Source: Bacillus sp. X1(2014)
GTDB taxonomy: Bacteria > Bacillota > Bacilli > Bacillales_B > DSM-18226
NCBI RefSeq assembly: GCF_007678255.1
Contig: NZ_VEED01000022.1
Location: 22,766-86,765, forward strand
Length of the DNA stretch: 64,000 nucleotides
Direction of reading: 5' to 3'
Part shown: positions 4,226-54,600 of the stretch, piece after piece
How positions within the stretch are numbered: position 1 is the stretch's first letter
Layout of the letters: every line of letters starts with the position of its first letter
The notes under the pieces: model-generated
What the model saw: only the letters and a program-made list of their open reading frames with translations
What the model was told of the DNA's origin: nothing
The model's database searches: none
Position numbers and translations under genes: made by a program

Positions 4226-4239
4226 CCAACTAAGCCAAT

Positions 4240-4413: not shown

Positions 4414-4420
4414 TAAAACA

Positions 4421-4484: not shown

Positions 4485-4552
4485 GCCCCTATGCTTTAGC
4501 AAAGGAAAGAGTTCATTAGATAAACAAAAGAATAATAGTGGAGGAATTAACA

Positions 4553-5446: not shown

Positions 5447-5466
5447 AGAGAAGGAAGGGGTCACGG

Positions 5467-8858: not shown

Positions 8859-8870
8859 TAGGGATCTAGT

Positions 8871-8972
8871 GTGAACAGAACAATGTTAATGTTTGTACTA
8901 AAGTTGACGAGTTTGTTTGGCATGAGCAGACAAAAGGTTGATGTTGTTAGAACAGCAGGGCTAGTTAAATAA
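8871..8972 (+). pseudogene. Possible gene remnant (33 codons)
   Basis: A GTG-initiated reading of 33 codons (beginning VNRTMLMFVLKLTS) fills part of the 219-base gap between two glycosyltransferase genes. It has no good ribosome site and I recognise no family. It may be the scar of a gene lost during cassette shuffling, or chance. Confidence 0.2.
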
Positions 8973-9077
8973 TTTGGTAGAGGGGTTATTGGCATCCGGT
9001 TCTTATCCCTTCTTTTCCTCAATTTTTACTAAGCAATAGAATAGAGAAAATATTTCTTAGTTTAGGAGGTGTTTGCA

Positions 9078-10112: not shown

Positions 10113-10160
10113 TGGGGTGGACAGAAGTCGTTTATTGTCAAAAGAAGGAGAAATAACCGT

Positions 10161-10715
10161 ATGATTAAGACACTGAAAGACTTACACGAATATTTGCAGT
10201 ATGAGAAAATGCTGTACCCAAATTCGTTTGTAGATATTCTGACGAATGATCAGAGAACATACAACTGGCGGTACATTAAGTATTTAAGAATATGTGAATA
10301 TTTTTATAATAACCGCCACAGATCAATTTTTGATAAAATATTGTATTTATTGTATCGTAGGAAAAAAAATGTTCTTGGCAGCAGAATTGGTGTTGAAATC
10401 TGGGAAAATTCTTTTGCAAAGGGACTTGTGATTCACCATAATGGCAGTATTGTTGTTAACCGTGAATGTCGCATTGGTGAAAATTGTGAATTGCACGGAG
10501 ACAATTGCCTTGGTAATGCAGGGGTGGGGCCGTTATGCCCTACGTTAGGAAATAACGTAAAAATCGGTGTGGGCGCAAAAATTATTGGTAAGGTTACAAT
10601 TGCAAATGGTATCAAAATTGGCGCTAATGCAGTAGTAAATAAGTCTTTCCTTGAGCCGAACATTACTATTGTTGGTATCCCTGCTCGTAAGGTTGAAAAG
10701 GGGATGGAAAAATGA
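10161..10715 (+). CDS. Hexapeptide-repeat acyltransferase (serine acetyltransferase-like)
   Basis: This 184-residue left-handed beta-helix acyltransferase carries an imperfect hexapeptide series (I-G-x-x-x-x) from residue 75 on, with GLVIHHNGSIVVN and the catalytic-type histidine. The last part GIPARKVEKG is a typical end. Such proteins in polysaccharide clusters O-acetylate a sugar using acetyl-CoA. The ribosome site AAGGAGAAA precedes ATG. It overlaps the following gene by four bases. Confidence 0.85.
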   Translation: MIKTLKDLHEYLQYEKMLYPNSFVDILTNDQRTYNWRYIKYLRICEYFYNNRHRSIFDKILYLLYRRKKNVLGSRIGVEIWENSFAKGLVIHHNGSIVVNRECRIGENCELHGDNCLGNAGVGPLCPTLGNNVKIGVGAKIIGKVTIANGIKIGANAVVNKSFLEPNITIVGIPARKVEKGMEK

Positions 10716-11704
10716 AATACCTGATTGTTGATGATGAGCATGCCCTGTACAGGCAGATGTTTGCTGATTTGTTTTCAGCAGCTACGCAAGGATTTGAAAT
10801 TGAAGAAGTTCCAAGAATGCAGATTCCATCAGTGCTATTACCACTTTATAATATCCATTTTTGTGACCGAATTAATCGGCATTTTTTTCTACCGTTTAAG
10901 TCAATTTGGAATCCCTTTTATCGGTTACATCAATATAATTTTAGTCCTCAAGAGGAATACTGCGTAATTTTACTCAACGGCTCTCTTCGTTATCATTTTA
11001 GTAATAAATATTTGAGAGAGTTTAAGCAATGCAATCCGAATGTAAAACTTGCTATGATACTATATGATAGTTTTAGTAATCCGAGTGCACAGCGATCCAT
11101 TGAAATGATACCTCTGTTTGATGTGGTTTTCTCTTTTGATGAAGATGACTGCCGCAGACACGGTTTTGAGCGAATTTATTCGACATTTTCAAAGCCTGAA
11201 TCTGTTCGAAAGTGCAAAGACGATTATAGTTCTGCCTTTTTCGTTGGCTATGGACAAGGACGACTTGATATTTTGCAAAAGACCTTTTCTAAGATTTCAT
11301 CGGCTATTGATGGTTGTAGATTTATGATTGCAGGAGTTAAGGAAGCAGAACAAGTTGCAATACCTGGGGTGATTTATAATACCACAATCCCTTATGAGCA
11401 GGAACTACAATTTGCATATAATACAGAATGCATTGTAGAAGTTGTGCGGGAAGGCCAGACGGGGGTTTCATTACGAACATGCGAGGCGATAGCATTTAAC
11501 AAGAAGCTACTTACCAATAATAAGAAATTGCTTGATATGCCTTTTTATGATGAGAGATATATGCGCGTGTTTAGCGATCCTGAAGAAATTGACCTTTCTT
11601 TTGTGAAAGAAAAGGCACTTGTGCAGTATGAACATAGTGACTATTTTAGCCCTATTAACATAATTAGACAGATAAGCTGGATTTTCGGAGACATAGCGAG
11701 GTGA
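10712..11704 (+). CDS. Probable glycosyltransferase of the EPS cassette
   Basis: This 330-residue soluble protein lacks a signal peptide. Its C-terminal third (VEVVREGQTGVSLRTCEAI near residue 245, then LLTNNKKLL and YDERYMRVF) looks like the donor-site region of GT-B enzymes of the CgeB/lipopolysaccharide type. The N-terminus does not match a family I can name. It is coupled by ATGA overlap to the acyltransferase and followed by the polymerase gene, so a role in repeat-unit synthesis is inferred. The sugar is unknown. Confidence 0.6.
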   Translation: MKYLIVDDEHALYRQMFADLFSAATQGFEIEEVPRMQIPSVLLPLYNIHFCDRINRHFFLPFKSIWNPFYRLHQYNFSPQEEYCVILLNGSLRYHFSNKYLREFKQCNPNVKLAMILYDSFSNPSAQRSIEMIPLFDVVFSFDEDDCRRHGFERIYSTFSKPESVRKCKDDYSSAFFVGYGQGRLDILQKTFSKISSAIDGCRFMIAGVKEAEQVAIPGVIYNTTIPYEQELQFAYNTECIVEVVREGQTGVSLRTCEAIAFNKKLLTNNKKLLDMPFYDERYMRVFSDPEEIDLSFVKEKALVQYEHSDYFSPINIIRQISWIFGDIAR

Positions 11705-26821: not shown

Positions 26822-26925
26822 TAGTTCGTACGAAAGGGCAAACCCATTGAAAGATGGAGGCGCAAAACTATAGGGGCTAAGGTTTTCACAACTATGCCAG
26901 CCAGCTACCGAATATGATCGCCTTA
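26822..26925 (+). promoter_or_regulatory. Class I cyclic-di-GMP riboswitch (GEMM-I)
   Basis: The conserved core is present in order: AAGGGCAAACCCATTGAAAG (26833-26852), GGAGGCGCAAAACTATAGGG, GGCTAAGG, then GCCAGCCAGCTACCGAA (26896-26912). This gives the GAAA tetraloop hairpin, the GCGCAAA segment, and the closing receptor stem ending in ACCGAA. It precedes the 36-residue gene at 26961. No obvious terminator lies between, so control of translation through the GGGAGG site is the likely mode; whether binding turns the gene on or off cannot be told. Confidence 0.88.
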
Positions 26926-32142: not shown

Positions 32143-32279
32143 AGGCCGATTTTTGCCATTTTAGCTATTTTTCATATCAATTTGTAGACCGAGGGGATGG
32201 CTGGCCCGGTTCTTATGGTCCAGGGGCTAACTTGACTAAAAACAGGAGAACTGCCCCTCTGAGGAGTGATTTTTGAAGG

Positions 32280-32610
32280 CGTCCCTCGACAATCCTTTTG
32301 GCCATTTAGAGTGAGAAAACTATGTGTGGAGCGTGCGGGGGCATATTTTAACCAAACGTTTGTGTAGTTTCGAAAAGGCGGGGTTTTAGCAGAATAATGG
32401 AAGTTTGGAAGAAACTAATCTTTTTTTGTAGAAAAGAGGGTTATTTCCTGCGGAATTTTCGAGCGTATCTCGACAATCTTCTTGTCTCCTTTGGTGGTAA
32501 TTGCTTCTGATTCAGTACTTGCATCCCATTCAACCAAGCGTTTGATTAGTATGGCATAAATAGAATTTAGTCGAATGTACCCTATTGCAGCTGTAGGAGT
32601 AGGTCGAATG
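32280..32610. repeat. Dispersed intergenic repeat, copy A
   Basis: This copy shares with three others a fixed order of motifs. CCCTCGACA upstream is followed by a CCAAACGTTTGTGTAGTTTCG palindromic start at 32352, AGAATAATGnAAGTTT, GGTTATTTCCTGCG, and TCGACA-TCTTC. CAGTACTT, a second AAGCGTTTGATTAGTAT, and ATTTAGTCGAA follow. It is the most diverged copy, and a minus-strand open frame (32415-32630) across it is not conserved in the others. It lies just before the CoiA-like gene. Confidence 0.75.
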
Positions 32611-32749: not shown

Positions 32750-34369
32750 ATGAATATTGCATTATTAAATGATTACAAGATAGACATTGAGAGTTTAAGT
32801 TTAGAATTAGAAGAAAAGGGCTATGAACGAAAAGAAGTGAAAGAAAAGTTAAATGAACGCTTTCGGAGGTTCTCACAAAAAGGAGATTTTCGGTGTTTTT
32901 GTTGTAATGAGCGTGTGGAGATGGTATTAACCCTTGATAAAACTTTCCATTTTAGACATTTTGACAAGAAGCAATGTTCATTTAGTGAAAACCACAAAAC
33001 ATACACACGGCAAAAGGAGAATTTAGAAGATGTTCCTACACATCGAGCAGGTAAAGCAATATTAAAAACTTACCTAGAAGGAGCGTGTAAAACTAATAAA
33101 ATACGATTGACTGACGGATATCATTGTAAGAGTACGCTTTCTTTTGTTCCTGACTTTATTTTAGAGTTTACCAATGGCCAAAAATGGGCGATTGATTATT
33201 TAACAGGGTTAAAAAATGATATAAAATATGCAAATAGCTTAATTAAACGTAAAAATACATATATTCAGCATCATTTCACCCCAATTTTTTTAATAGACAG
33301 TTATTGGTTAGCATATGAGTCTGAAATAAATCATGTATCCTTAGTAGACGGAGAATTATTGTGTGTGGGTCAATCAAAACAAGATCATTTATGGACGAGT
33401 TTTATTAAAGGATTGGACCAAAATCTGCAAAATACTCTACTCAATAATCGTCCTTATAGTTTTCAAGTAAAAAGTATGGTTTATGTTTCCCCTCATGAAC
33501 GTGAAGTAAATATCATCCGATTTTTACAAGAAACTCACAACCCCAAGAAGACAAGGACAGTATATAAGCCAATAAAAATCCCATTAGAACAAGCATTGAT
33601 GATCAACCAGGAGCAATCTAATTTCACATATACAGAAAAGAATGAAAATGAGTATAAAGAAGAACTTAAAAGGCAACTTACAAGAATATATCAAGAACAA
33701 GTAGAACTAAGAAAGCAACAAGAATTGGAAAATACTAAAAAAGCAGAAGAGGAAAGTAAACTAAGAGAATTTGCCAAGGCTCGTGAAGCTCAGAAACAAA
33801 AGGAAATTCAAACAACAAGGGGATATTTTGAAACAAAGGGTGTTTCTTTTTCAGGTCGTAGTCAGCAGCAAATGGATACTGACTTAAAGAGAGATATGGA
33901 TTATTTGCAAAAGAAAAATTCAGCAAGGGAACCATACTGGTTAAAACAAGTGGTAAACCATATGTCAGAATTCTATGGTGTTGAGAGTGAAGTTCAAGAA
34001 CATGCACAGACAATAGTAAAAGATACAGCATCCCAAAACGTAGTCTCTAGTCCTTCTAATGGAGCCTTAAATATCCCAGAAACTGTGATTGGGGTAACTT
34101 CCAAACTTCCAGGCTGGAAGGTAGAGGAAATATTAAATCATTATGTAAATGGAGAAGCATATTTTACAGGTAACTCTAGAAAGTGGAAAGAAATTGTTTT
34201 AAATATCTATTGGGAAATTTATACAAATAAAATATCAGTACCTCAGATACTGCAAAAAATTAAAGATAATGGAATTAAATTTGACCAACCCGAAAAAATA
34301 ATGGCCTTTCCATTAAATGAATATATACAGTATATAGGTAAGAAAATAAAAAAGGATGTACGCATTTAA
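32750..34369 (+). CDS. CoiA-like nuclease-domain protein with coiled-coil extension
   Basis: This 539-residue protein has a zinc-finger-like FRCFCCNERV near residue 46, FHFRHFDKKQC near residue 68, THRAGKAILKTYL near residue 100, then FVPDFILEF and WAIDYLTGLK near residues 131-150. This is the order found in competence protein CoiA, whose core is PD-(D/E)XK nuclease-like. Residues about 300-365 form a charged coiled coil, and the last 170 residues are of unknown type. CoiA proper is shorter (about 330-390). It could serve DNA processing or defence; the nuclease-like neighbour at 34474 favours the latter. GGGGGAG precedes ATG. Confidence 0.7.
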   Translation: MNIALLNDYKIDIESLSLELEEKGYERKEVKEKLNERFRRFSQKGDFRCFCCNERVEMVLTLDKTFHFRHFDKKQCSFSENHKTYTRQKENLEDVPTHRAGKAILKTYLEGACKTNKIRLTDGYHCKSTLSFVPDFILEFTNGQKWAIDYLTGLKNDIKYANSLIKRKNTYIQHHFTPIFLIDSYWLAYESEINHVSLVDGELLCVGQSKQDHLWTSFIKGLDQNLQNTLLNNRPYSFQVKSMVYVSPHEREVNIIRFLQETHNPKKTRTVYKPIKIPLEQALMINQEQSNFTYTEKNENEYKEELKRQLTRIYQEQVELRKQQELENTKKAEEESKLREFAKAREAQKQKEIQTTRGYFETKGVSFSGRSQQQMDTDLKRDMDYLQKKNSAREPYWLKQVVNHMSEFYGVESEVQEHAQTIVKDTASQNVVSSPSNGALNIPETVIGVTSKLPGWKVEEILNHYVNGEAYFTGNSRKWKEIVLNIYWEIYTNKISVPQILQKIKDNGIKFDQPEKIMAFPLNEYIQYIGKKIKKDVRI

Positions 34370-34473
34370 GCAATTAATGTTTTAAAGCTATGACGGCAGT
34401 GAGTGTTAAAAACATAGGTGTTAGGTACAGAAAAGAAAGATTATAAATATAAATTGATGGTGAGGATATTTAA

Positions 34474-35265
34474 ATGTATAAAAAGTTGGCTCGTCCCGCT
34501 AATTGGCAGGACTTCGAAAGATTAATTTGTGCACTTTACGAAAAGATTTATGGTATGGTAACTAGTAATCTATATGGACGACATGGGCAAGCCCAGGATG
34601 GGGTTGACACCTATTTTAGAGAGATACCTACCTTAGGAAAGCAGAATGTAGCCATTCAATGTAAAAGATATGAAATTGGTCAGTTAACAACCGATATTAT
34701 TGATAAGGAACATGACAAGGTGAAGAACTTTCCTAATAAAGTTGACACATACATAATTATTACAACTGATAGTACGGATACAGCTTTGCAAAACTATGCC
34801 AGTACTAAGAAGGAACCAAAATGTGAATTAGTATTTTGGGAAACAATTGAAAGTAAGATTCAGATGTATGAAGATATTTTACAAGGCTATTATAAAGAGT
34901 TTGTTATTTATAGAGACCCAACAAAAGAAGGGAATACCGCTAGTCAATATTTTGTTTTGGAATTCTCTGGTTCTAGACTTGAATTTCTTATTAGTCGGAT
35001 CCCTACCTATGAAGGGAAATTTAGTGATACAGGCTTCTTACTTAACTTACAAACTAAAAAGGCAGCGTATTATCCTGTTAGGAATAAACGTGATTTATTA
35101 TTTGTTTTTGATACCACTTATGATGCGTTTGCTGTTTTTCATTTTTTAGAGCAATTTAATGGTTTCAGTTTTTTGGCAAATAAGTCTATCGGTCATGCAG
35201 TATTTTTAAACCAACAACAAATTCAAGATGAAGTTATTGATTATGAAAAAAGAGTGGGAATTTGA
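34474..35265 (+). CDS. PD-(D/E)XK restriction endonuclease-like protein
   Basis: This 263-residue protein has an N-terminal half resembling Mrr/DUF4297-type nuclease domains. NWQDFERLICALYEKIYG holds the helix-A acid, GRHGQAQDGVD near residue 43 gives the active-site Asp, VAIQCKRYEIGQL near residue 59 gives the Q-x-K, and YIIITTDSTDTALQNYA near residue 95 is the following strand. The C-terminal 130 residues are unrecognised. Such heads are fused to sensors in anti-phage proteins. It follows the CoiA-like gene by 104 bases in the same direction and is bounded by repeat copy B. Confidence 0.75.
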   Translation: MYKKLARPANWQDFERLICALYEKIYGMVTSNLYGRHGQAQDGVDTYFREIPTLGKQNVAIQCKRYEIGQLTTDIIDKEHDKVKNFPNKVDTYIIITTDSTDTALQNYASTKKEPKCELVFWETIESKIQMYEDILQGYYKEFVIYRDPTKEGNTASQYFVLEFSGSRLEFLISRIPTYEGKFSDTGFLLNLQTKKAAYYPVRNKRDLLFVFDTTYDAFAVFHFLEQFNGFSFLANKSIGHAVFLNQQQIQDEVIDYEKRVGI

Positions 35266-35339
35266 TAGGCAATACTCTTAAATGTATAATCGGATGATAT
35301 TTCGAAAGCATGATCATTTATTAATAATGAAATAAAGAG

Positions 35340-35850
35340 CATACTCTAGGAATGATGAGAGCTTAAGTAACTTTTAATTAAACGCTTGTGAGTTTCGAAA
35401 ATGTGGGGGAATAACAGAATAATGTAAGTTTATGAGTAACCCATTTAATTTTGTTGAATGATGGGTTATTTCCTGCGAAATTAATAAATGCTATTCGACA
35501 TTCTTCATGTCTACTTTGCTGCGGGAATTCATATACATCAGTACTTACAGAAGTTTTAACCAAACGTTTGAATAGTATAGCCTATATGATATTTAGTCGA
35601 AAGAGTGTCGGTTGGTGACGATAGTGGCAGAAACGACGTTTTTCTCCTATTTTTCGTGCATGTTTCAACAATTTATTTTTGCATAGTGGAGGACATAGCT
35701 TGATCTATCAATGGCCACAGTGAAACTAATCAATCGTTTGATTAGAAGAGAAACTTGTGGAAGGTGGTCGATGGTTGTCACTGAAATCCCGTGCCTAGTC
35801 ACCGTCCGAAGTAGGAAATGTAAAGATGCATGAGCAAACTTAGAAACCGT
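35340..35850. repeat. Dispersed intergenic repeat, copy B (long form)
   Basis: The order is CTAGGAATGATG, TAATTAAACGCTTGTGAGTTTCG, AGAATAATGTAAGTTT, a hairpin AACCCAT...ATGGGTT, TATTTCCTGCGAAATTAA, CATACATCAGTACTT, TAACCAAACGTTTGAATAGTAT, TTTAGTCGAAAGAGTGTCGG. It then runs on through TTTCTCCTATTTTTC and a third palindrome TCAATCGTTTGATTAGAAG into TGGTCGATGGTTGTCACTGA. The same layout occurs in copy C, and its tail recurs at 47559. It sits directly after the nuclease-like gene. Confidence 0.85.
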
Positions 35851-36056
35851 GCATGTCACGCCCAGATAGTTCACTAATCCCAATGCTTGTCACTGCCCGG
35901 CATTTGACCAAGATAGTTAGCCTTGTTTATTAGTAGAATTTGAAAAGTACCATCGTTGCTATTATTTCAAGCTTAAGTTCCATGAAAATGATCCAATTGG
36001 CGATCTCGGGGTCAGATCCCAGTTCGGCCTATAATTAACTATTATCGATCCGTTTT

Positions 36057-36081
36057 AACCGTCTTCTTGGCGGTTTTTTTT
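36057..36081 (+). terminator. Intrinsic terminator without an assigned gene
   Basis: AACCGTC (36057-36063) pairs with GGCGGTT (36069-36075), followed by eight T. No gene lies upstream on this strand back to 35265, so it either belongs to an unrecognised small RNA starting after repeat B or blocks read-through. The gap 35266-36409 otherwise holds repeat B, a GGGGTCAGATCCC-like bit near 36009, and two weak overlapping frames near 36124-36357 that I do not accept. Confidence 0.65.
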
Positions 36082-36409
36082 GTGTGAACTTTACATCCGT
36101 TCAGATTGAAAAGCTTCTCTCTATCATTCTGATGTTAAGATCGGTTTAAGATGACACAAAGAGATACCCTCGTTGACCCGAGTAATACCATAGATTACTT
36201 CATAAAATACTTCAAAGATTACTACAGAGAAAAAAATATATGTCGTATTCCACTTCCGAACTCCCCAAAAATATTTTTTAATACCCTGTCCTTTTTTCAT
36301 TTTCATTTCTATATAAGAGGTAGAAGGAACGTAAGCCAATCGGTTGGCTAAAATCATCTTAAGAACGAATCAAGGTTCCTTTACATAAAGGTTTAAAGGA
36401 GAGGTTCAG

Positions 36410-37123
36410 ATGAGTAGGTTGTTGATTAAGGAAAGTCCAGTCATGATTATCCCCAGTTTGGCGGTGAAGATTGGTTTGAATGAGGCTGTGGTGCTGCAGC
36501 AAATTCATTATTGGCTCGGAATTAGTAAGCATAAGATTGAGGGGAGAACCTGGGTGTATAACACGTATGAGGAGTGGCGGAAGCAGCTTCCATTTTGGTC
36601 GGTTAGTACCATTAAACGGACGATTCTTTCATTAGAAACGAAGGGATTACTTCTATCTGCTAATTTTAATCAGATGAAAATGGACAAGACGAAATGGTAC
36701 AGCATTGACTATGATAAACTGCAAGAGCTTGAAGATAGTGCCATTCAAGGTCCAGTAAGTGTAGAGGAACTAGCAACGGAGGAAGAGGCGGAGTATACGA
36801 AGGAAATGGATGTCAGTCCAACCGTGAAAGAGGTCATTCCGTATGCTGAAATTATCCAATATTTAAATGAGAAGGCGGGAAAGAACTTTAGACCAGGCTC
36901 GATTAAAACAAAGGAATTGATTCATGCCAGATATGGAGAGGGTTTTACGCTTGAGGATTTTAAAAGGGTCATTGATTTAAAGTCAGTAGAATGGCAGTCT
37001 GATCTTCAGTGGAATAAATTTCTTCGTCCGGAGACGCTATTTGGGACAAAGTTTGAATCCTATCTCAATCAGCAAGAAGAGAAGAAGAAAATGTCTGAGG
37101 AGGATTTTAACTTTGACGAGTAA
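36410..37123 (+). CDS. Phage-type replication protein (conserved phage C-terminal domain)
   Basis: This 237-residue protein has a winged-helix start: SLAVKIGLNEAVVLQQIHYW near residue 15, then WVYNTYEEWRKQLPFWSVST near residue 48 and LETKGLL. An acidic linker leads to the C-terminal domain YLNEKAGKNFRPGSIKTKEL and IDLKSVEW, ending in FLRPETLFGTKFESYLNQ. This C-terminal domain is typical of phage replication organisers of the DnaD/gp-type. AAAGGAGAGG precedes ATG. It is coupled to the helicase-loader-like gene that follows, and both are probably prophage remnants. Confidence 0.88.
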   Translation: MSRLLIKESPVMIIPSLAVKIGLNEAVVLQQIHYWLGISKHKIEGRTWVYNTYEEWRKQLPFWSVSTIKRTILSLETKGLLLSANFNQMKMDKTKWYSIDYDKLQELEDSAIQGPVSVEELATEEEAEYTKEMDVSPTVKEVIPYAEIIQYLNEKAGKNFRPGSIKTKELIHARYGEGFTLEDFKRVIDLKSVEWQSDLQWNKFLRPETLFGTKFESYLNQQEEKKKMSEEDFNFDE

Positions 37124-40151: not shown

Positions 40152-40883
40152 ATGACAAATGTAATGCCTGTATTAGAAGGAAATATCGCGAAGAGAACGT
40201 TACAATTTTTTTGGTTAGCAGACTACTCAGGTTCTATGAAGGGAGCTAAGATGCAGATCTTGAATCAAGCTATTCGCGATGTGCTTCCGGAGATTCGAGA
40301 CGCAGTCGCTTCACACCCGGAAGTACAAGTAATGATGCGTGCCATTAAATTTAGTGATTATGCGGAGTGGCATGTTGGACCGACTCCAGTGCCTATTGAA
40401 AATTTCACATGGAATGACTTACATGTACAAGGCCTAACAGCAACGGCGGAAGCGATTGACCTGCTATCGGAAGAATTGGACATTGAAAAAATGAATAGAA
40501 GAGGGTTGCCGCCAGTATGTATTCTCTTATCTGATGGGTTCTGTACAGATTCAGAAGAGGATTATAACAAGGCCATTCAAAAGCTTAATTCACTCCCATG
40601 GGGGAAAAGAGCAATCAGATTGGTTATTGCCATCGGGGAAGAGCATGAATATGACGAAAAGGAATTATTAAAGTTTGTGAGCCACAATGAAATAGGGGTT
40701 TTGAAAGCAAAAACACCGGAACAATTAATCCAGTACATCAAATGGGCAAGTGTGACTGCAACGGTGGGGGCATCTGTCGGAAAAAGTCATGTTGGCTCAG
40801 ACAATAGTCAGAAAAATGTGGTTCTTCCTGCACCGCCTCCTGCTGTTCAAACTACGCCAGATGATGACTTTGATGTTTTTTAA
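40152..40883 (+). CDS. TerY-like von Willebrand factor A domain protein
   Basis: This 243-residue cytosolic protein is nearly all VWA domain. The metal site (MIDAS) is complete: LADYSGSM near residue 22, GLTATAEAID near residue 97, and LLSDGFCTDSEEDY near residue 120. The tail is proline-rich and acidic (VLPAPPPAVQTTPDDDFDVF), a likely flexible contact. TerY proteins occur with PP2C phosphatases and kinases in the TerY-P triad, which is what follows here. It opens the operon with AAAGGGGATAG before ATG. Confidence 0.88.
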   Translation: MTNVMPVLEGNIAKRTLQFFWLADYSGSMKGAKMQILNQAIRDVLPEIRDAVASHPEVQVMMRAIKFSDYAEWHVGPTPVPIENFTWNDLHVQGLTATAEAIDLLSEELDIEKMNRRGLPPVCILLSDGFCTDSEEDYNKAIQKLNSLPWGKRAIRLVIAIGEEHEYDEKELLKFVSHNEIGVLKAKTPEQLIQYIKWASVTATVGASVGKSHVGSDNSQKNVVLPAPPPAVQTTPDDDFDVF

Positions 40884-40901
40884 TAGAGTGGGTGAGAAAC
40901 T

Positions 40902-42029
40902 ATGAACGATAGTAAGTACAAAGAAGGAATGAGTGAAAGCGGAAAGTCAAATTACGGATACTATAACATTACCTGTGTTCGGGGTGCGTCACACGTTAAA
41001 CATAATATCCCATGCCAGGATGCTTACGATTTTTTTAATGATGGTGGTAGTGACCACCCTTTTATTCTGGCGATTGCGGATGGTCATGGTGACAAGAGAT
41101 ATGACATGAGTCAATATGGTTCTGAATTAGCTTCAACAGTAGCAGTGGAACTAATAAGGGAATTTTATGAAGAACTTAAAGACTCTAATACTCTCTTATT
41201 TAGAACATTTAGAGATGATTTCCCAAAACAAGTAATAAGGGAATGGCGAAAGAAAGTCTTAAATCACGCAAATGATTATGGACTTGATACCAAAAACCGG
41301 TCAGAGGTTTACACAAGATATGGGACAACTTTACTAGTGGCTTTGGTAACCAAGGACGAAATACTGTTTGGACAATTAGGTGATGGTGATGTGGTATTAG
41401 TTGATGGTCAAGGAAACTGTACGATTCCTTTTCAACAAGAAGATGATTTGCTTGGAAGCGCCACGTATTCCTTATCATCAACCGAAGCCAATCGTTTTTG
41501 GAAAGCTGCACGGATGGATTTTCCTGCACAAACGCAATTCCTGGCACTGAGTACGGATGGATTATCCAACTGTTTTGAGGATGAAAGAAATTTTCACCAG
41601 TTTATGAGCAGTCTCTATTCGGCTTTGAAAGAGTCTGGCAACGTCTCCGAATATAACCGATTATCGGATATCCTGTTTGATTATTCGATGAGAGGGAGTG
41701 GTGATGATATAACCTTAGCTGCAATCGAGTTGCAAGGGTCAAGGGTAAATGAACCGCTTAACACTATTATAAATGATGTAGAGGACAAAGTTACGAACCA
41801 AGAATCTTTGAATGATCAAGATGATGAAAAAAAGAAAAAGGATTCTCTTTTAAAAAAGATCAACGAACAAATGGATTCTGCTGATCGATTGGGACATAAG
41901 CCATTATCAGAGGAGGAGAGCATAAATAAAGTAGCGGAAAGCAAGCAAGAGGAAACGCCTATCATCCATTTTGGCTCAAGACAAGATAAAGAAGGGATAA
42001 AAATCCTGTTTAACAAGAGAAGCAGATAA
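40902..42029 (+). CDS. PP2C-type Ser/Thr protein phosphatase
   Basis: This 375-residue protein carries a PP2C domain in residues about 20-275. HNIPCQDAYDFF and IADGHGDKRYD bind metal, YGTTLLVALV lies near residue 142, LGQLGDGDVVLVDGQG near residue 160, LSTDGLSNCFED near residue 210 and DDITLAAIEL near residue 267. A charged, disordered tail of about 100 residues with KKKKDSLLKKI follows. It would reverse phosphorylation by the kinase encoded next. It lies 18 bases after the VWA gene. Confidence 0.92.
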   Translation: MNDSKYKEGMSESGKSNYGYYNITCVRGASHVKHNIPCQDAYDFFNDGGSDHPFILAIADGHGDKRYDMSQYGSELASTVAVELIREFYEELKDSNTLLFRTFRDDFPKQVIREWRKKVLNHANDYGLDTKNRSEVYTRYGTTLLVALVTKDEILFGQLGDGDVVLVDGQGNCTIPFQQEDDLLGSATYSLSSTEANRFWKAARMDFPAQTQFLALSTDGLSNCFEDERNFHQFMSSLYSALKESGNVSEYNRLSDILFDYSMRGSGDDITLAAIELQGSRVNEPLNTIINDVEDKVTNQESLNDQDDEKKKKDSLLKKINEQMDSADRLGHKPLSEEESINKVAESKQEETPIIHFGSRQDKEGIKILFNKRSR

Positions 42030-42047
42030 AATCGGAGAGTGATTCAT

Positions 42048-43385
42048 ATGACGTTACAAATCGGTCAACAGGTGCTTACAGAAACAACAGGAGAGCTTTT
42101 AACCATTAAGAGGAAGCTGGGAGAAGGCGGGCAAGGAGCTGTTTACCTCGTTGAAGGCCATAGTAAAGGCACCAAAGCATTGAAGTGGTATAACCACGAA
42201 CAAGCAAATGAGGAACAGAAAAAGATGATACGAGATCTCGTGCAAACGGGCGCTCCAAGTGGAGAAGCAGGAAGGCGTTTTGTCTGGCCTATCGACACTG
42301 TCGTATCAGCTGGAACTTCTCAGTTTGGTTATTTGATGGATTTAATAGATACAAAGAGATTTGCCGAATTAGGGGAAGTATGGGCAAAGAGAAAACCCAC
42401 TCCTAACATGAAAGCTCTATGTAAAATCTCCTATGCTACGTCGGATTCATACAGAATGCTTCACTTGAGTGGGAGATGTTATCGAGATATATCATCCGGG
42501 AATATCATGTTCGATCCCCAAAATGGAGAAGTCTTAATCTGTGATAATGATAACATTGGAATTAACAATGAATCGGAAACACAAGTATGGGGGACTATGG
42601 AGTACATGGCTCCAGAGATTATTCGAGGCGAAGCAAGGCCATCTACAGACACTGATTTACATTCGCTAGCAGTTTTGTTATTTCAATTATGGATTTGGCA
42701 TCACCCGTTCCATGGCCAAATGGAATATAGTGTCCGTTCGTGGGATCTTACCGCCAAAAGGAAAATTTATGGTGAACAGCCTGTTTTTATTTTTGATCCT
42801 ACCAACAGAACGAATGAGCTTCCTAACGATCCAGATTATTTTACTGCAAAGAAAAGATGGGAAGTTTGCCCGGAACCCTTAAAGGAAAGGTTTATACAGG
42901 CTTTCACAGTAGGGTTACAAAACCCGAAACAGCGTGTAACAGAAAGCCAATGGCGGAAGCTGTTTTTACAGTTAGGTGACAGCATTGTTCAATGCGGGCA
43001 AGATTCAGCGGAAAACTTTTGGAGTGAATCGAAAAATGAAGTGCAATGTTGGCATTGTGGAAAGTCAGTAGGGGTGCCTCCTAGACTCTTGCTTAAAACA
43101 GCAGCTGGCCAGCAGTATGTTTTATTGAACAAAGGAACGGCTATTACTCGGCGCCACATTGACCCCACTGCTTCAGAGGAAGAATGGATGGAAGTGGTAG
43201 GGGAAATTGTACAAAATCCAAATAACCCATCAGTATGGGGGCTGCGAAACAAAACAACCGCCGCATGGAAGGGAATTAACAAAGCTGGGGCGGAAAAAGA
43301 CATTGAATCACAAAAAGCGGCGCCTCTACAAGATGGATTGAAAATTCAATTTCTTAGAAATGCGGAAGGAATAATTATTGGCTGA
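42048..43385 (+). CDS. Ser/Thr protein kinase with zinc-ribbon and FHA-like tail
   Basis: This 445-residue cytosolic kinase has the glycine loop LGEGGQGAVYLV near residue 25, the ATP-binding lysine in KALKWYN, catalytic YRDISSGNIMF near residue 145 (HRD replaced by YRD), ICDNDNIGI (DFG replaced by DND) and YMAPEIIRG near residue 185. After residue 330 a CWHCGK zinc-knuckle-like motif leads to a beta-rich part (LLNKGTAITRRHI, WGLRNKTTAAWKG, APLQDGLKIQF) that looks like a diverged FHA domain. Unlike PASTA kinases it has no membrane span. The start is ATG 42048, eight bases after GGAGAG. Confidence 0.88.
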   Translation: MTLQIGQQVLTETTGELLTIKRKLGEGGQGAVYLVEGHSKGTKALKWYNHEQANEEQKKMIRDLVQTGAPSGEAGRRFVWPIDTVVSAGTSQFGYLMDLIDTKRFAELGEVWAKRKPTPNMKALCKISYATSDSYRMLHLSGRCYRDISSGNIMFDPQNGEVLICDNDNIGINNESETQVWGTMEYMAPEIIRGEARPSTDTDLHSLAVLLFQLWIWHHPFHGQMEYSVRSWDLTAKRKIYGEQPVFIFDPTNRTNELPNDPDYFTAKKRWEVCPEPLKERFIQAFTVGLQNPKQRVTESQWRKLFLQLGDSIVQCGQDSAENFWSESKNEVQCWHCGKSVGVPPRLLLKTAAGQQYVLLNKGTAITRRHIDPTASEEEWMEVVGEIVQNPNNPSVWGLRNKTTAAWKGINKAGAEKDIESQKAAPLQDGLKIQFLRNAEGIIIG

Positions 43386-43402
43386 TTAGACGGAGGCTAG
43401 TT

Positions 43403-44647
43403 ATGACACAGTCCACCCAGGATGTATTAAAGAACATATTAAACATTTATGGCATTACCATTTGTTCCGAATCCAAAAGACTACAGGGCATCTTACAGGA
43501 TTGGGCCATTGAAAGTAAAGGGAAAATCAAAGCCTTAGTTTCAGTAGCAGAAGAAAACGTAGTCAATGAATTATTCAAGAATGCTGATCATCAGGTTGAC
43601 TATGCACTATATAGTCGTTTGGTCACTAGGGTCCATCAAAATACAGCTATTGAACAAAGTGTTGTTGAGTGGGCCATTGATTGTTGGATCCATGCGTTGG
43701 ACAAGAGTGTTCCACATAAGCCTATACACCAAGTGGGAAAAATCGGTGGTGGGTCCATACCAAAGAACCAATCAGTGAATCAGATGGTTGCTTTCCCAAC
43801 CAGCCCAATTAGCCAACCTTCACAAGCGGCCAATGGAATTCCTGTAAAACAAAGCTCAACACAACCGGTTGTGACGCAGAATAATCAAAATGGACTCAAT
43901 CAATCAACCGTCTCTCAACCGGTAAAAAGGAGTAAAGTGGCACCTGTGTTAGTAACCATTCTTATTGCAATTGGTGTTATTACCGGAGGATATAAGTTAT
44001 TCTCTTCGGAGGATGCCGTAGACTCGTCCAATGGACAGGAAATGGCAAGTGCAGATGAGAGTGTAAGTGTGGATGTGGAACCGGATAAGGAAGAGGGGAC
44101 AAATCAGGTTACGAAAGAAGTCACAGCGACAAATCCAGGTGAGTATATCTTCCCTGAAAGCAATACGAAAAGATTAACAGAAAGTGAAATAGCAAACTTG
44201 ACCTATGAACAACTTCGGTTAGCTAGAAACGAAATATATGCCCGTCATGGCTACTTATTTAAATCGGAGGATTTACAGACCTATTTTAACCAAAAAAGTT
44301 GGTATCATGAAGATGCTTCTTATGACGGAGTCACTTTGAGTGAGATAGAAAAATCCAATGTGGAATTAATCAAGAATCTGGAAAAAACCGGTTTTATCAT
44401 GCCTGGTAGTGATCAGCGGAGATTATCAGAAAGTGAACTAGCAAATTTGACGCTTGAAGAACTTCGATTAGCAAGAAACGAAATATATGCCCGTCATGGC
44501 TATATATTCAATTCGGAGAATTTGAATTCCTATTTTCAGCAAAAAAGTTGGTATCACGAAGATGCCTCTTATGATGGGATTACGTTAAGCGAGATTGAAA
44601 AATATAATGTGGAAATGATTCAGAACAGTGAGAGGTCAATACAGTGA
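43403..44647 (+). CDS. Membrane protein with two extracellular YARHG domains
   Basis: This 414-residue protein has a cytosolic N-terminal region of about 175 residues with a helical part and a Gln/Ser-rich linker. One membrane span (VAPVLVTILIAIGVITGGYK) follows, then an acidic linker and two tandem YARHG domains. Each domain reads LRLARNEIYARHGY, then QKSWYHEDASYDG, LSEIEK. The copies are about 80 percent alike. YARHG domains are outside-facing modules of unknown ligand. It could pass a wall signal to the kinase inside, or be its substrate. The start of the next gene overlaps its stop (GTGA). Confidence 0.88.
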   Translation: MTQSTQDVLKNILNIYGITICSESKRLQGILQDWAIESKGKIKALVSVAEENVVNELFKNADHQVDYALYSRLVTRVHQNTAIEQSVVEWAIDCWIHALDKSVPHKPIHQVGKIGGGSIPKNQSVNQMVAFPTSPISQPSQAANGIPVKQSSTQPVVTQNNQNGLNQSTVSQPVKRSKVAPVLVTILIAIGVITGGYKLFSSEDAVDSSNGQEMASADESVSVDVEPDKEEGTNQVTKEVTATNPGEYIFPESNTKRLTESEIANLTYEQLRLARNEIYARHGYLFKSEDLQTYFNQKSWYHEDASYDGVTLSEIEKSNVELIKNLEKTGFIMPGSDQRRLSESELANLTLEELRLARNEIYARHGYIFNSENLNSYFQQKSWYHEDASYDGITLSEIEKYNVEMIQNSERSIQ

Positions 44648-45612
44648 AGTCTAAAACAATTAATTTAGGAGTTATCTTGCTTTCTCTGATAATGGTAATT
44701 GCACTAGTTTTATATTTTAGCCATTCAGTGGGGAAGAAAAATTTGTTGAAAAGTAATAATAAACAGCAAGAGGATAGAGTAAGCACAGTTAAAAAAGAAG
44801 AGCAGGGAAAAAAGGATTCTACAGCCTCAGTGAATGTAGGAGGGGAAAATAGTGTCTCTCAAGAGAATGTGAAGGCATCGAATAAGGGAGTCCAGGAAAA
44901 TGCCGTTCCTGAGAGCTCTCGTGCCTCTTCAGTATCCACTAATTCTGAGAAAAAAGAAGAAGTTCAAAACGAATTTTTAGTGGTGATTGATCCGGGTCAT
45001 CAGGATCGAGCTAATACCGCTCCTGAGCCAGTCGGTCCTGGTGCTAAGGAAACGAAGATGAAGGTTACTGGTGGAACTTCAGGAGTTTCCACTGGAAAAC
45101 CAGAATATAAATTAACATTGGAAGCATCCCTCATTTTAGGTCAATTATTGGAAAGCAGAGGGGTAAAGGTTATTTTCACTAGAACTACTAACAACGTAAA
45201 TATCAGTAACAGAGAAAGAGCGGAGATTGCCAACCAAAATAACGCTGATTTATTTATACGTATCCATGCGGATGGAGCAACAAATAGAAATGTTCATGGT
45301 CTGTCTGTTCTCACTCCGGCGGAGAGCAGCCCGTACACGAAAGAAATCTTCAATGATAGTTTAAAAGCTTCCGAGTTTATCATTGATGAAACAAAGAAGA
45401 ATGCATCAGTTAAAGTAAACGGGATTTCTTACAGAGGTGACATGTCTGGTTTCAATTGGTCCAAAGTTCCTTGCACACTGGTGGAACTTGGATTTATGAC
45501 CAACCCAACGGAAGATAAGAACCTTTCTAATTCAGTTTATCTGAAGAACTTGCTTACCAATATGGCTGATGGTGTTATGCAATATGTTAGTTACAAAGAG
45601 AATGTAGAATGA
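44644..45612 (+). CDS. Exported N-acetylmuramoyl-L-alanine amidase (Amidase_3)
   Basis: This 322-residue protein has an N-terminal membrane anchor or signal (INLGVILLSLIMVIALVLYF) and a Ser/Glu/Lys-rich linker to about residue 110. The zinc amidase domain follows: VVIDPGHQD (first His), PEYKLTLEASLILG (Glu), IRIHADGATNRNVHGL (second His) and VELGFMTNPTED (catalytic Glu). It cuts the bond between MurNAc and the stem peptide. GTG start within the YARHG gene's end shows tight coupling, so wall cleavage is probably an output of this signalling operon. Confidence 0.92.
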   Translation: MKSKTINLGVILLSLIMVIALVLYFSHSVGKKNLLKSNNKQQEDRVSTVKKEEQGKKDSTASVNVGGENSVSQENVKASNKGVQENAVPESSRASSVSTNSEKKEEVQNEFLVVIDPGHQDRANTAPEPVGPGAKETKMKVTGGTSGVSTGKPEYKLTLEASLILGQLLESRGVKVIFTRTTNNVNISNRERAEIANQNNADLFIRIHADGATNRNVHGLSVLTPAESSPYTKEIFNDSLKASEFIIDETKKNASVKVNGISYRGDMSGFNWSKVPCTLVELGFMTNPTEDKNLSNSVYLKNLLTNMADGVMQYVSYKENVE

Positions 45613-45757: not shown

Positions 45758-45789
45758 GCAAAGGGATGGGCAATGACCCATCCCTTTGC
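45758..45789. terminator. Convergent terminator hairpin
   Basis: GCAAAGGGATGGG (45758-45770) pairs exactly with CCCATCCCTTTGC (45777-45789), loop CAATGA. It lies between two convergent genes. T-rich DNA (TGTCTTTTTT) follows about 15 bases downstream on the + side only. Confidence 0.6.
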
Positions 45790-47303: not shown

Positions 47304-47727
47304 ATGAATAAGAAAAAAACTGCTTTGTTGTGTGTGGATATGAGGTATAGGACGCAGCAAGAGGTCATGGTGTCTTTGATAAAACAAAAGCAGTATTTTC
47401 AAAGGCTAGAAGGGAAGGTAGTTCCAAATATTGCACGGATTCAAGCTGTATTCCGTGAACAAAAAATGGAAGTCATTCATACCAAAATGAGTCATTAAAC
47501 AGAGACTGCAGAGATCGGGGCCCGGAGCAAATACGGATTGGTATCCATGTCCCTTTGTGGAAGATGGTCGATGGTTGTTACTGAAATCCTGTGCCTAGTC
47601 ACCGCCGGAAGTAGGAAATTTAAAGATGCATGGGCCAATCCATTAGTACACCATGTATTATCATATCGAAATAAATTTTCTGATAAACGGGAGAAGAATA
47701 TTGTACAATTATCTAGATCACTTTTAT
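47304..47727 (+). pseudogene. Isochorismatase-family gene, broken and overrun by repeat DNA
   Basis: The N-terminal reading MNKKKTALLCVDMRYRT, LEGKVVPNIARIQAVFREQ, KMEVIHTKM matches cysteine hydrolases of the isochorismatase group (Asp in the VDM motif). It stops at 47498. In another frame LNRDCRDRGPEQIRIGIHVP continues for 20 residues. From about 47559 the DNA instead matches the tail of the dispersed repeat (CGATGGTTGT, CTGTGCCTAGTCACCG). So the gene was truncated by, or recombined with, a repeat copy. Confidence 0.7.
47559..47645. repeat. Partial copy of the dispersed repeat tail
   Basis: This stretch matches the segment at about 35749-35835 with few differences: GTGGAAGATGGTCGATGGTT, CTGAAATCCTGTGCCTAGTC, GAAGTAGGAAATTTAAAG, ATGCATG. 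The shared piece lies after the third palindrome of the long form. Confidence 0.75.
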
Positions 47728-49094: not shown

Positions 49095-50984
49095 ATGAAG
49101 AAATCACTCTTCGCTGTAATTTGTACGCTGGTCATGTTATCGGTCCCTTTATCTGCCTATGCACATCCAGGTAGAACGGACTCTAACGGGGGACATTATT
49201 GTTGGACAAACTGTGAAAAATGGGGGCTTTCCTACGGGGAATATCATTATCCCAATGGCAATAGTTCAAGTGTAAGCCCAAAGGAAAGTTCGAAGGTAAG
49301 TTCAAAAGTAACTACAAGCGCCAAAAAGAGCGGTTGGAAAAAAACGAATGGAAAACGATATTACTATGTTAAAGGTGTTAAACAAAAAGGTTGGAAGGTT
49401 ATTGATAATAAACGTTATTACTTTGACAAAAACGGTGTAATGAAGACTGGATGGCTTACATATAAAGGTTCTAAGTATTATTTAGACAAAAACGGTGTGA
49501 TGAAAAAGGGCTGGATCACAGTTAAAAGTAAAAAGTATTACCTTAATAAGTCAGGTGTGATGAAAAAAGGCTGGATCACAGTAAGTGGTAAAAAGTATTA
49601 CCTCGATAAGTCAGGCGTGATGAAAAAAGGCTGGATTACGGTAAGCGGTAAAAAATATTACCTTGATAGCTCAGGCGTGATGAAAAAAGGCTGGATTACA
49701 GTAAGCGGTAAAAAATATTACCTGGATAGCTCAGGTGTAATGAAAAAAGGCTGGATTACGGTAAGCGGTAAAAAATATTACCTTGATGGCTCAGGCGTGA
49801 TGAAAAAAGGCTGGATTACAATAAGCGGTAAAAAATATTACCTTGATGGCTCAGGCGTGATGAAAAAAGGCTGGATTACAATAAGCGGTAAAAAATATTA
49901 CCTGGATGGTTCAGGTGTGATGAAAACCGGCTGGGTTACAGTAAGCGGCAAAAAATATTACCTGGATGGCTCAGGTGTGATGAAAACCGGCTGGGTTACA
50001 GTAAGCGGCAAAAAATATTACCTGGATGGCTCAGGTGTGATGAAAACCGGCTGGGTTACAGTAAGCGGCAAAAAATATTACCTTGATAGCTCAGGTGTGA
50101 TGAAAACCGGTTGGGTATTAGTGAATGGAAAATGGTATTATCTAGACAGCATTGGTGTGAAGAAAACTGGTTGGTTAGATTTATCAGGGAAAAAGTACTA
50201 CCTCAATTCTGATGGGTCAAGGGTAACAGGCTGGAAGCAAATCAGTGTCAAATGGTATTATTTCAATAAAGCAGATGGGTCAATGGCAGTCAATACAACA
50301 GTGGATGGCTATAAATTAGGTGCAGATGGAGCGCGAATTCAAGTTCAATATGTTGCTTTAGGTGATTCCTTAGCGGCCGGTATGACTCCTTATGGAGTAG
50401 ATAGAATTCCGGTAGACGGAGTAGATTTAGATTGGGGATACCCAAATTATATTTCAGAGAAGTTTAAAAAGTCCTATCAGTTACTAGATTTTGATAACTT
50501 TGGCGTTTCTGGATATAAAACGGATGATGTCATAGCTGATTTCAATAAAGCAGACGTCCAAAAAGAAATAAAAGAAGCAACACATTTAACGATTGATATT
50601 GGTGCGAATGACCTGCTTCCAGTCGTTCAAGCTAATCCAGCTCAAGCACCAACAGAAATTGTTAAAGTTTCCGAAAAATTGAACACAATTTTAGGCACAA
50701 TCGATCAATTGAATCCAAATGTGAAGGTATATGTGATGGGATATTACAATCCATTCCCATATGTAACTGATGCGCAGCAAAAAGCGCAGTTAGAACAATT
50801 ATTACTCGCATTTAATGGACAGATTCAAGCTCGAGCTGTACAGAATGGTGATACATTTGTACCAACTGCACAAGTTATTAATGTAGCAAATTTTGCAGAC
50901 TACCTTCCAAATCCATTGAATATTCACTTGAGTCTCGCAGGTTATCAAGTAGTGTCTGAAGAATTTTGGAAAGTGATGAATTAA
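49095..50984 (+). CDS. Cell-wall-binding repeat protein with C-terminal SGNH esterase
   Basis: This 629-residue secreted protein has a signal peptide (MKKSLFAVICTLVMLSVPLS, cut near AYA) and a short YHYH-type domain (GGHYCWTNCEKWGL, EYHYPNG). About fifteen 20-residue choline-binding-like repeats (GWITVSGKKYYLDxSGVMKK) run from residue 77 to about 405. The C-terminal SGNH/GDSL hydrolase has VALGDSLAAG (nucleophile Ser), IDIGANDLLP near residue 500 and IHLSLAGYQ (His). The repeats should hold it on wall polymers while the hydrolase removes acyl groups. The central repeats match at DNA level in a 60-base period. GGGGGAAA precedes ATG. Confidence 0.92.
   Translation: MKKSLFAVICTLVMLSVPLSAYAHPGRTDSNGGHYCWTNCEKWGLSYGEYHYPNGNSSSVSPKESSKVSSKVTTSAKKSGWKKTNGKRYYYVKGVKQKGWKVIDNKRYYFDKNGVMKTGWLTYKGSKYYLDKNGVMKKGWITVKSKKYYLNKSGVMKKGWITVSGKKYYLDKSGVMKKGWITVSGKKYYLDSSGVMKKGWITVSGKKYYLDSSGVMKKGWITVSGKKYYLDGSGVMKKGWITISGKKYYLDGSGVMKKGWITISGKKYYLDGSGVMKTGWVTVSGKKYYLDGSGVMKTGWVTVSGKKYYLDGSGVMKTGWVTVSGKKYYLDSSGVMKTGWVLVNGKWYYLDSIGVKKTGWLDLSGKKYYLNSDGSRVTGWKQISVKWYYFNKADGSMAVNTTVDGYKLGADGARIQVQYVALGDSLAAGMTPYGVDRIPVDGVDLDWGYPNYISEKFKKSYQLLDFDNFGVSGYKTDDVIADFNKADVQKEIKEATHLTIDIGANDLLPVVQANPAQAPTEIVKVSEKLNTILGTIDQLNPNVKVYVMGYYNPFPYVTDAQQKAQLEQLLLAFNGQIQARAVQNGDTFVPTAQVINVANFADYLPNPLNIHLSLAGYQVVSEEFWKVMN
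49441..50160 (+). repeat. Twelve tandem 60-base coding repeats
   Basis: The DNA repeats every 60 bases, each unit beginning near TGATGAAAAAAGGCTGG and including GTAAAAAATATTACCT. Neighbouring units differ at few positions in the middle and diverge at both ends; units near 49921-50100 (AAAACCGGCTGGGT form) are almost identical. Such arrays change length by slippage, so the protein's stalk probably varies between strains. Confidence 0.9.
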
Positions 50985-52579: not shown

Positions 52580-52719
52580 TATAATGCACCCTTTTCTTAA
52601 GTAATTCTGAGAGTTATTCAATTTAAACTAACAGAATTCCTTTAAAAATAAATATTTTTTTAAAAAAATTGTTGGTGCTGTATTTTTGGGGGATTCACGA
52701 CATTTTTCTCAGGTATTAA

Positions 52720-53167
52720 AAGTGAAGAATCTAGGAATGATGCGGGCTGAAATAACTTTTAATTAAACGTTTGTGTAGTTTCGAAAAAGTGGGGGATTAA
52801 TAGAATCATGTAAGTTTTTGAGAAAACCTTCAGATTTTGTTGAAAGATGGATTATTTCCTGCGAAATTAACAAATGTTCTTCGACACTCTTCTTAGCTAT
52901 TTTGCTACGGGGATTCATATACATCAGTACTTGCAGAAGTTTTAACCAAACGTTTGATTAGTATAGCCTTTATGGTATTTAGTCGAAAGAGTGTCGGCTG
53001 GTGACGATAACGGCAAAAACGACATCTTTCTCCTATTTTTCACGCATATTTCAACATTTTATTTTTGCGTAGTGGAGGACTAAGCTAGATCCACCAATGG
53101 ATGCAGTGAAACTAATCAAACGTTTGATTAGAAGGGAAACTTGTGGAAGATGGTCGATGGTTGTCAC
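52720..53167. repeat. Dispersed intergenic repeat, copy C (long form)
   Basis: This copy is very similar to B along its whole length: CTAGGAATGATG at 52731, TTAATTAAACGTTTGTGTAG, AGAATCATGTAAGTTT, GATTATTTCCTGCGAAATTA, CATATACATCAGTACTTGCA, and TTTTAACCAAACGTTTGATT with TTTAGTCGAAAGAGTGTCGG. TTTCTCCTATTTTTC, TAATCAAACGTTTGATTAGA and GATGGTCGATGGTTGTCACT complete it. It then runs into a GGGTCAGACCCC mini-hairpin. No gene is contained. Confidence 0.88.
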
Positions 53168-54269: not shown

Positions 54270-54600
54270 GCAGGGAAGACATCCCTCGACATACTTTTTG
54301 AGCATCTATAGGGATAATGCTAGGAATGGAGCTTGCTGAGAATGGTTTTAGTCAAACGTTTGGTTAGTTTCGAAAAAGAGGAGTTTTGATAGAATAATGG
54401 AAGTTTACGAGAAAACCATCTGATTTTGTGGAACATTTGGTTATTTCCTGCGAAATTAATGAACATTTATCGACAAGTTCCCTTCCAGCTTGGCGGTGGA
54501 AGATTAGTAAAGGACAGAACTTACACCTGTTTTAAACAAACGATTGATTAGTATAGCCTATACGGAATTTAGTCGATTGGGTGTCGTTTAGTCAAAAATT
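54270..54600. repeat. Dispersed intergenic repeat, copy D
   Basis: The sequence holds CATCCCTCGACATACTTTTT (as in copy A), GGTTTTAGTCAAACGTTTGG, TAGTTTCGAAAAAG, AGAATAATGGAAGTTTACGA, a short AACCA/TGGTT stem, GGTTATTTCCTGCGAAATTA. AAACAAACGATTGATTAGTA and ATTTAGTCGAttGGGTGTCG follow. Copies A and D share the upstream part that B and C lack. A 9-codon frame (MIIKFIRLR, 54737-54766) with a fair ribosome site follows in the same gap; its reality is unknown. Confidence 0.8.

Follow-up and report, generated by a model that had tools for sequence, protein, structure and literature searches.

TerY-P systems, described by Anantharaman et al. 2012 (cited in PMC11090510), consist of adjacent genes for a VWA protein, a PP2C-type phosphatase and a Ser/Thr kinase fused to a C-terminal zinc ribbon; Ter or DNA-processing and defence genes are frequent but not obligatory companions. 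They have been proposed to act as metal-sensing switches, TerY-P triads accompany the restriction systems called CoCoNuTs, and TerY-P-like modules with an OB-fold kinase instead of the zinc ribbon have been reported as stand-alone antiphage systems (PMC11090510). Here we describe a related five-gene unit of Bacillus sp. X1(2014). The DNA analysed, referred to as the window, is a stretch of 64,000 nucleotides (nt) from assembly GCF_007678255.1 (contig NZ_VEED01000022.1, positions 22,766-86,765, forward strand), and its own numbering is used for all of its features. At 40152-45612 on the + strand, genes for a VWA protein, a PP2C-type phosphatase and a Ser/Thr kinase are packed together with genes for a protein with two YARHG domains and an Amidase_3 enzyme. 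The window is like TerY-P in the three enzyme and scaffold types, in the adjacency of their genes and in a kinase with a zinc-ribbon region. However, the zinc ribbon is without one Cys, and a receptor containing a domain that we term YN, as well as the amidase, are additional. None of the 10 flanking proteins scanned is a Ter protein, as the initial annotation of this DNA had also stated.

Further systems are close to the window. The E. coli genes for YegI, PphC and YegL bring a kinase, a PP2C and a VWA-type protein together, as in the window. Over the aligned part, YegI is 24% identical to the window kinase (E 3e-11), and PphC is 26% identical to the window PP2C (E 9e-7). In PASTA kinases, a single membrane span connects a wall-type ectodomain with a Ser/Thr kinase. 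The same arrangement is described for YARHG kinases, and peptidoglycan has been proposed as the ligand of YARHG (PMC3355149). PphC dephosphorylates YegI, which unlike the window kinase is itself membrane-bound, and no condition promoting expression of YegI and PphC is known according to PMC13232886. In the window, receptor and kinase are separate proteins, in contrast to YARHG and PASTA kinases, and are apparently bridged by YN. Our comparisons point to this cytosolic N-terminal domain as the conserved link to the triad, with YARHG being one of many exchangeable ends.

The YN domain and its partners

The fourth gene of the unit (43403-44647, +) encodes a receptor-like protein with a YN domain, a linker, one predicted membrane span and two YARHG domains. 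The YN domain (residues about 8-100, 43424-43702) was delimited by iterated search and modelled as seven helices with a mean predicted local distance difference test score (pLDDT) of 94.4; the model had no close match in the PDB. A kinase-profile scan of genome contigs yielded 254 relatives, the best 80 of which were taken as loci (L numbers) and stored with up to 10 kb on each side. Residues 1-110 of the window YARHG protein were then searched iteratively against open reading frames (ORFs) of at least 60 residues in these loci. A YN domain of about 94 residues was found in 77 ORFs from 59 of the 80 kinase loci, in Bacteria and Archaea, and began within the first 30 residues in 67 of the 77. 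All three triad genes were present in 66 loci, 52 of which had a YN gene near the triad; in 33 of these 52, the kinase gene and the closest YN gene were no more than 100 nt apart (on opposite strands in 4 of the 33). Following YN, one membrane span was predicted in 33 of the 77 proteins, several in 9 and none in 35.

For 33 isolated YN domains, Pfam yielded only scattered weak matches, with no family in more than two members and a best E of 0.004. When 55 YN proteins (that of the window and 54 of the 77) were scanned with Pfam and NCBIfam, the widest family matched only 12 of the 55 and lay in the C-terminal half where its position was shown, and thus no library model corresponds to YN. The other ends of these proteins varied: the 25 widest of 91 Pfam families included FGE-sulfatase (12), beta-helix (6), TPR (3), Lcl_C (3), SH3 (2) and YARHG (1), and WD40, a weak leucine-rich repeat, TcaA and a solute-binding domain were additional ends. 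Searching 5.8 billion proteins with one YN domain returned 61 matches, whose ends included RDD, Lcl_C, FGE, MCP-signal, GrpE and SWIB.

The YN half was also conserved more closely with the triad than the remainder of the protein. Among 335 pairs of loci with kinase identity of at least 50%, the YN halves gave a BLASTP match in 315 and the C-terminal halves in 61. Across 51 loci, distances correlated with those of the kinase at 0.95 for VWA, 0.90 for PP2C, 0.72 for YN and 0.51 for the C-terminal half. On a Methylomonas plasmid (L118, 8318-15747), the triad is followed by five tandem YN genes in which the YN copies are 91-98% identical and the other parts differ; two of these other parts resemble Clp N-terminal domains. 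This plasmid and one from Prevotella were the only plasmid records with a kinase match at E 1e-40 or better, and the YN query matched only the former. As phage searches gave no kinase match at E 1e-20 and no match for one YN query at E 1e-4, general carriage by plasmids or phages was set aside. In a Bacillota genome outside the 80 loci (L108, 4596-11530), three YN genes surround a triad, and an LRAT-family gene is interspersed. Judged by these comparisons, the YARHG protein of the window appears to be a receptor whose constant part is a docking domain.

YN and the kinase also tended to occur in the same genomes, in three of the four groups compared. A YN match was obtained in 22 of 24 kinase genomes, and the remaining 2 had no match at E 0.001. 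In genome sets scored with cut-offs of E 1e-60 or 1e-50 (kinase) and E 1e-3 or 1e-4 (YN), the kinase was found in 2 of 299 Bacillota and 4 of 251 Chloroflexota, with YN in the same 2 and the same 4. The family of Neobacillus drentensis (L002) had the kinase in 2 of 193 genomes and YN in 3, namely the same two and one weak match (G027), which lies inside a 2343-residue ORF and is probably spurious. With Cyanobacteria included, YN was present in 9 of 12 kinase genomes versus 6 of 925 others (Fisher p 7e-16), or in 3 of 6 versus 6 of 925 (p 1e-5) without the six genomes already in the kinase scan; these numbers are small, and genomes within one phylum are not independent.

Three genomes of the cyanobacterial phylum without a triad-kinase match have a YN-FGE gene directly followed by a small gene with an LFDG(V/I)CNLCN motif (L102, 9464-11096; L103, 9877-11506; L105, 3336-4984), which we presume to be DCC/DUF393-like. 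At L101 (1391-3463), YN is fused to the start of an Hsp70, and Hsp70-like sequence continues in a separate ORF; this recalls yegD, the Hsp70 gene beside E. coli yegI. No YN domain was found in a 6.5-kb stretch of the YegI locus.

One locus carries signs of targeted hypermutation. In a proteobacterial metagenome-assembled genome (MAG; L019), the kinase gene is upstream of two YN-FGE genes (3528-5027 and 9006-10727), between which lie a 134-nt template copy of both of their 3′ ends (7896-8029) and, alongside it, an RVT_1 reverse-transcriptase ORF with a YMDD motif (5967-7073). Adenines make up 21% of the template bases and account for 11 of 17 and 14 of 19 of the differences (p 1e-4 and 1e-6). 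By sequence, 3528-10727 carries the signature of a diversity-generating retroelement predicted to act on the sensor ends of YN proteins; such elements have been described in putative conflict systems (PMC10907252). Among 80 YN genes examined (77 plus 3), diversification was convincing only here. Other repeats were internal or between paralogues; a few had a high adenine fraction, but with only 1-15 differences. The YARHG genes covered were those of L001 and L002, not that of the window, and neither had an adenine bias (0.31 and 0.26).

YN resembles the adapters of the EAD conflict systems, which are small, often helical, placed on varied partners and often located beside the core (Kaur et al. 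2020, PMC7159879). Kinase, PP2C and VWA genes are also reported near actinobacterial GAP1-N2 systems (PMC7159879). YN likewise is small, non-enzymatic, all-helical in its model and joined to varied partners. The EAD trait of a copy fused to the core was not seen, as no match to VWA, PP2C or kinase was obtained for any of the 77 YN ORFs from the 80 loci; one of the 61 database matches (P0279) carries a PP2C label. Pfam EAD models gave nothing above noise with 33 YN domains, the best being EAD4 at E 0.11 in one of them. Identity of YN with EAD1 (PF19955) was considered but not supported: EAD1 was not found in 8 triad genomes, in a search that also matched no control genome, and was found in only 1 of 59 Cyanobacteria. 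A comparison by hhalign, for which the EAD1 profile contained just two sequences, indicated no relation (0.3%).

The triad enzymes

The VWA gene (40152-40883, +) encodes a TerY-like protein with an acidic, Pro-rich tail. Its Pfam VWA match (E 8e-5, 23.4 bits) is just below the 23.8 cut-off, and its MIDAS motif DxSxS...T...D is complete (DYSGS, T and D). A homologous VWA protein was encoded in 67 of the 80 kinase loci. The PP2C gene product (40902-42029, +) has a PP2C_2 domain at residues 27-250 (E 1e-38) with its metal-site motifs present, and a charged C-terminal tail. We take these motifs to be the MIDAS and the PP2C metal site. The kinase gene (42048-43385, +) has a possible GTG start at 42039, and homologues begin at the ATG at 42048; its product matches Pkinase (E 2e-20). 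Our findings agree with the initial annotation in that the first three genes are, by their predicted products, a TerY-P-type triad.

The altered HRD and DFG motifs noted at that stage do read YRD and DND, but they involve no loss of catalytic residues. In a 15-row alignment of the window kinase and 14 relatives, from Bacilli, Desulfobacteraceae and planctomycete MAGs, Beggiatoa-type bacteria and methanogens, residues K49, D150, N155 and D169 (numbered from the GTG at 42039) are invariant. We assume that these are the residues needed for catalysis. Because they are retained, the changed motifs do not mean a dead enzyme, and the kinase is atypical yet probably active. Two other early claims about the kinase were not confirmed. 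Where CxxC had been noted, the zinc ribbon (42993-43058) is degenerate, as its first knuckle reads CxxD in the window and in four other Bacilli rows; it reads CxxC in the ten remaining rows, all from outside Bacilli, which have four of four Cys where the window has three (CxxD...CxxC). The proposed FHA-like tail corresponds to a beta-rich, family-conserved C-terminal domain (43059-43382) modelled with a pLDDT of about 90, compared with a mean of 76 for the whole kinase. None of 19 tails matched Pfam FHA, and the tail profile had no PDB sequence match.

The putative wall-directed proteins and the setting of the unit

In the fourth protein, the predicted membrane span (43937-43999), placed from the sequence and from the relatives at L001 and L002, is followed by two YARHG (PF13308) stretches (E 4e-51). 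The second domain (44390-44632) has 80% nucleotide identity to the first (44141-44386) over 231 nt. Among 120 listed homologues of this protein, 3 carry a kinase and YARHG in one polypeptide, which argues that kinase and YARHG act together and favours the earlier proposal that YARHG is the outer part of a transmembrane link. The fifth gene (44644-45612, +) encodes a predicted N-acetylmuramoyl-L-alanine amidase, membrane-anchored or exported. Its assignment to Amidase_3 (E 6e-38) would follow from both fold and residues: the motifs DPGH, EYKL, IHADG and VELG are present in alignment with a solved amidase, and Rv3717 is among the nearest solved relatives. For the His, Glu, His and Glu residues of these motifs we assume the usual roles.

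The five genes are as tightly arranged as first described (gaps of 18 nt or less and one overlap): VWA and PP2C are separated by 18 nt, PP2C and kinase by 9 nt (18 nt from the ATG), and kinase and YARHG gene by 17 nt, and the YARHG and amidase genes overlap by 4 nt. The same order was found in Bacillus sp. AFS006103 (L001) with the same spacing and in N. drentensis with nearly the same spacing, and all three operons have the stop/start overlap of genes 4 and 5. Ratios of non-synonymous to synonymous substitution (dN/dS) relative to the window were 0.04-0.27 for the five genes, indicating purifying selection. They were 0.16-0.18 for the amidase and, within the fourth protein, 0.13-0.15 for YN, 0.35-0.43 for the linker and span and 0.21-0.22 for the YARHG part. 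Since order and spacing were kept and the genes were constrained, the arrangement is not due to chance. The last two genes thus accompany the triad in two other genomes, and the refuting condition named at the outset, their lack beside the triad in every relative, did not arise. The idea that YARHG and Amidase_3 are general company of such triads was not supported, as a search with the window's own sequences found both as neighbours in only 2 of the 80 kinase loci, and the kinase itself was found in only 2 of 193 genomes in the L002 family.

Other relatives carry different outer ends. At L003 (Geobacillus zalihae), kinase and YN are 71% and 51% identical to their L001 counterparts, and the fourth protein has YN, a membrane span and a TcaA NTF2-like outer end (TcaA_5th). 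The next gene shares a 14-nt overlap with it, and its product is a GH3 glycosidase with a hydrophobic segment at the N terminus; the GH3 family includes wall N-acetylglucosaminidases. Geobacillus thus has another receptor end and another putative wall hydrolase, with the inner domain and the triad kept. In Cohnella (L005), a membrane span follows YN, and Pfam matched nothing in the outer end.

The gene upstream of the unit is divergent. Downstream are a terminator-like hairpin (45758-45789, +; 13 pairs, 8 of them GC), which belongs to a class of promoter- and terminator-like sites not above shuffled expectation, and a convergent carboxypeptidase gene. An accessory-looking stretch lies upstream (32750-37123) and includes genes that are CoiA-like, Mrr_cat nuclease-like and phage-type (Phg_2220_C). 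Mutually related repeats, about 84-300 nt long and 66-94% alike, are scattered outside ORFs of at least 100 residues (32275-32584, 35391-35838, 47555-47638, 52686-53076 and 54275-54586), and similar stretches occur at L001 (6407-6696 and 13766-14116). Rfam identified an epsC RNA (4291-4405, 105 bits) and a c-di-GMP-I riboswitch (26827-26912, 68.5 bits), and the gene at 49095-50984, which contains 60-nt tandem repeats, encodes a cell-wall-binding repeat protein that has a GDSL-type esterase at one end.

A proposed switch and its alternatives

In the mechanism that we propose, the kinase, the opposing PP2C phosphatase and the VWA scaffold would set a phosphorylation level inside the cell. YN would dock the receptor on the triad by binding the kinase or the VWA protein, and the two YARHG domains may read or hold peptidoglycan outside. 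The amidase would be a local effector, either controlled by the receptor at the outer face or made in step with it. The state of the wall could then shift the balance of kinase and phosphatase, or an internal phospho-state could be passed out to the wall. The phosphorylation level and the YN tie draw on comparative evidence, whereas the YARHG and amidase steps are ones that we infer. We consider the chances to be evenly balanced that the unit is a TerY-P-type switch fed by a modular transmembrane receptor, with the wall amidase as local effector. More broadly, and with slightly greater confidence, we lean towards YN as the element that turns TerY-P triads into hubs for interchangeable receptors across Bacteria and Archaea, with the sensor outside or inside the cell and hypermutated by a retroelement in at least one lineage. 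The window would be the cell-wall edition, in which exchange of the receptor (YARHG or TcaA-like) goes along with exchange of the wall hydrolase (amidase or GH3). The wall-sensing circuit put forward initially is partly supported, by the triad, the YARHG link, the conserved fourth and fifth genes and the different putative wall hydrolase in the same Geobacillus slot, but not as a general arrangement.

Several results weigh against these readings. Wall sensing is not the general job of YN proteins, because 35 of the 77 have no predicted span after YN. The amidase neighbour was seen only in the window, L001 and L002, and the Cohnella operon is followed by an AI-2E transporter gene. A cytosolic kinase cannot directly reach the outer domain of the amidase. 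Of the 66 complete triads, 14 were without YN in the stored stretch, which ends within 310 nt of the kinase in four cases and not in ten. In Cyanobacteria, the kinase was found in 4 and YN in 6 of 194 genomes, with one genome shared that was already in the kinase scan, and hence YN also serves partners other than the triad. Three of these YN carriers are FGE-type, one is Hsp70-type and two are others, with no triad gene in the fetched stretches, and three cyanobacterial triads were without YN. Strict co-occurrence of YN and kinase everywhere is ruled out by this single overlap and the isolated YN genes.

An anti-phage or anti-intruder switch, in which YN proteins recognise the intruder, the triad raises the alarm and infected cells are lysed by the amidase, is in our view unlikely, although there are precedents: OB-fold-kinase TerY-P-like modules are reported to act against phage and TerY-P occurs with CoCoNuTs (PMC11090510), and FGE-type ends of YN proteins are diversified by a retroelement as in putative conflict systems (PMC10907252). 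The kinase is patchily distributed, as in the 2 of 193 genomes above, and the restriction-endonuclease-like Mrr_cat gene (34474-35265) is about 5 kb upstream of the unit. However, PADLOC recognised none of the VWA, PP2C, YARHG or amidase proteins, finding kinase-domain similarity only (best E 2e-16), and its families matched 0 of 10 nearby proteins. An anchored outer amidase would presumably be an unusual suicide effector, and the receptor end and next gene are wall-type in both Bacillaceae-type variants.

A reading with the YARHG protein as a true fourth component and the amidase as a lineage-specific passenger in the same transcript is, we think, improbable. YN proteins are widespread and Amidase_3 neighbours rare (2 of 80 loci), as that would predict, but the gene 4/5 overlap in all three operons, the amidase dN/dS and the different putative wall hydrolase in the Geobacillus slot argue against it. 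Least of all do we expect a metal or tellurite stress switch like classic TerY-P with Ter proteins. The triad is alike and metal sensing is the published TerY-P hypothesis (PMC11090510), but no Ter protein was among the flanking proteins and the zinc site of the window kinase is degenerate.

Neither the triad nor the adapter principle nor YARHG is new. For YN, its link to the triad, the exchangeable ends, the retroelement case and the receptor-plus-hydrolase pair, we found no earlier description in the literature searched, although Anantharaman et al. 2012 and two YegI/PphC papers may hold one. Inputs of TerY-P triads and of E. coli YegI/PphC are not established in the literature consulted, and our results suggest that this known switch family listens through interchangeable receptors. 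If so, the readable sensor ends attached to a constant docking domain would reveal the input of each triad, one genome at a time. These systems would also be a new example of antigen-receptor-like modular, sometimes hypermutated sensing, coupled here to protein phosphorylation and not to NTPases.

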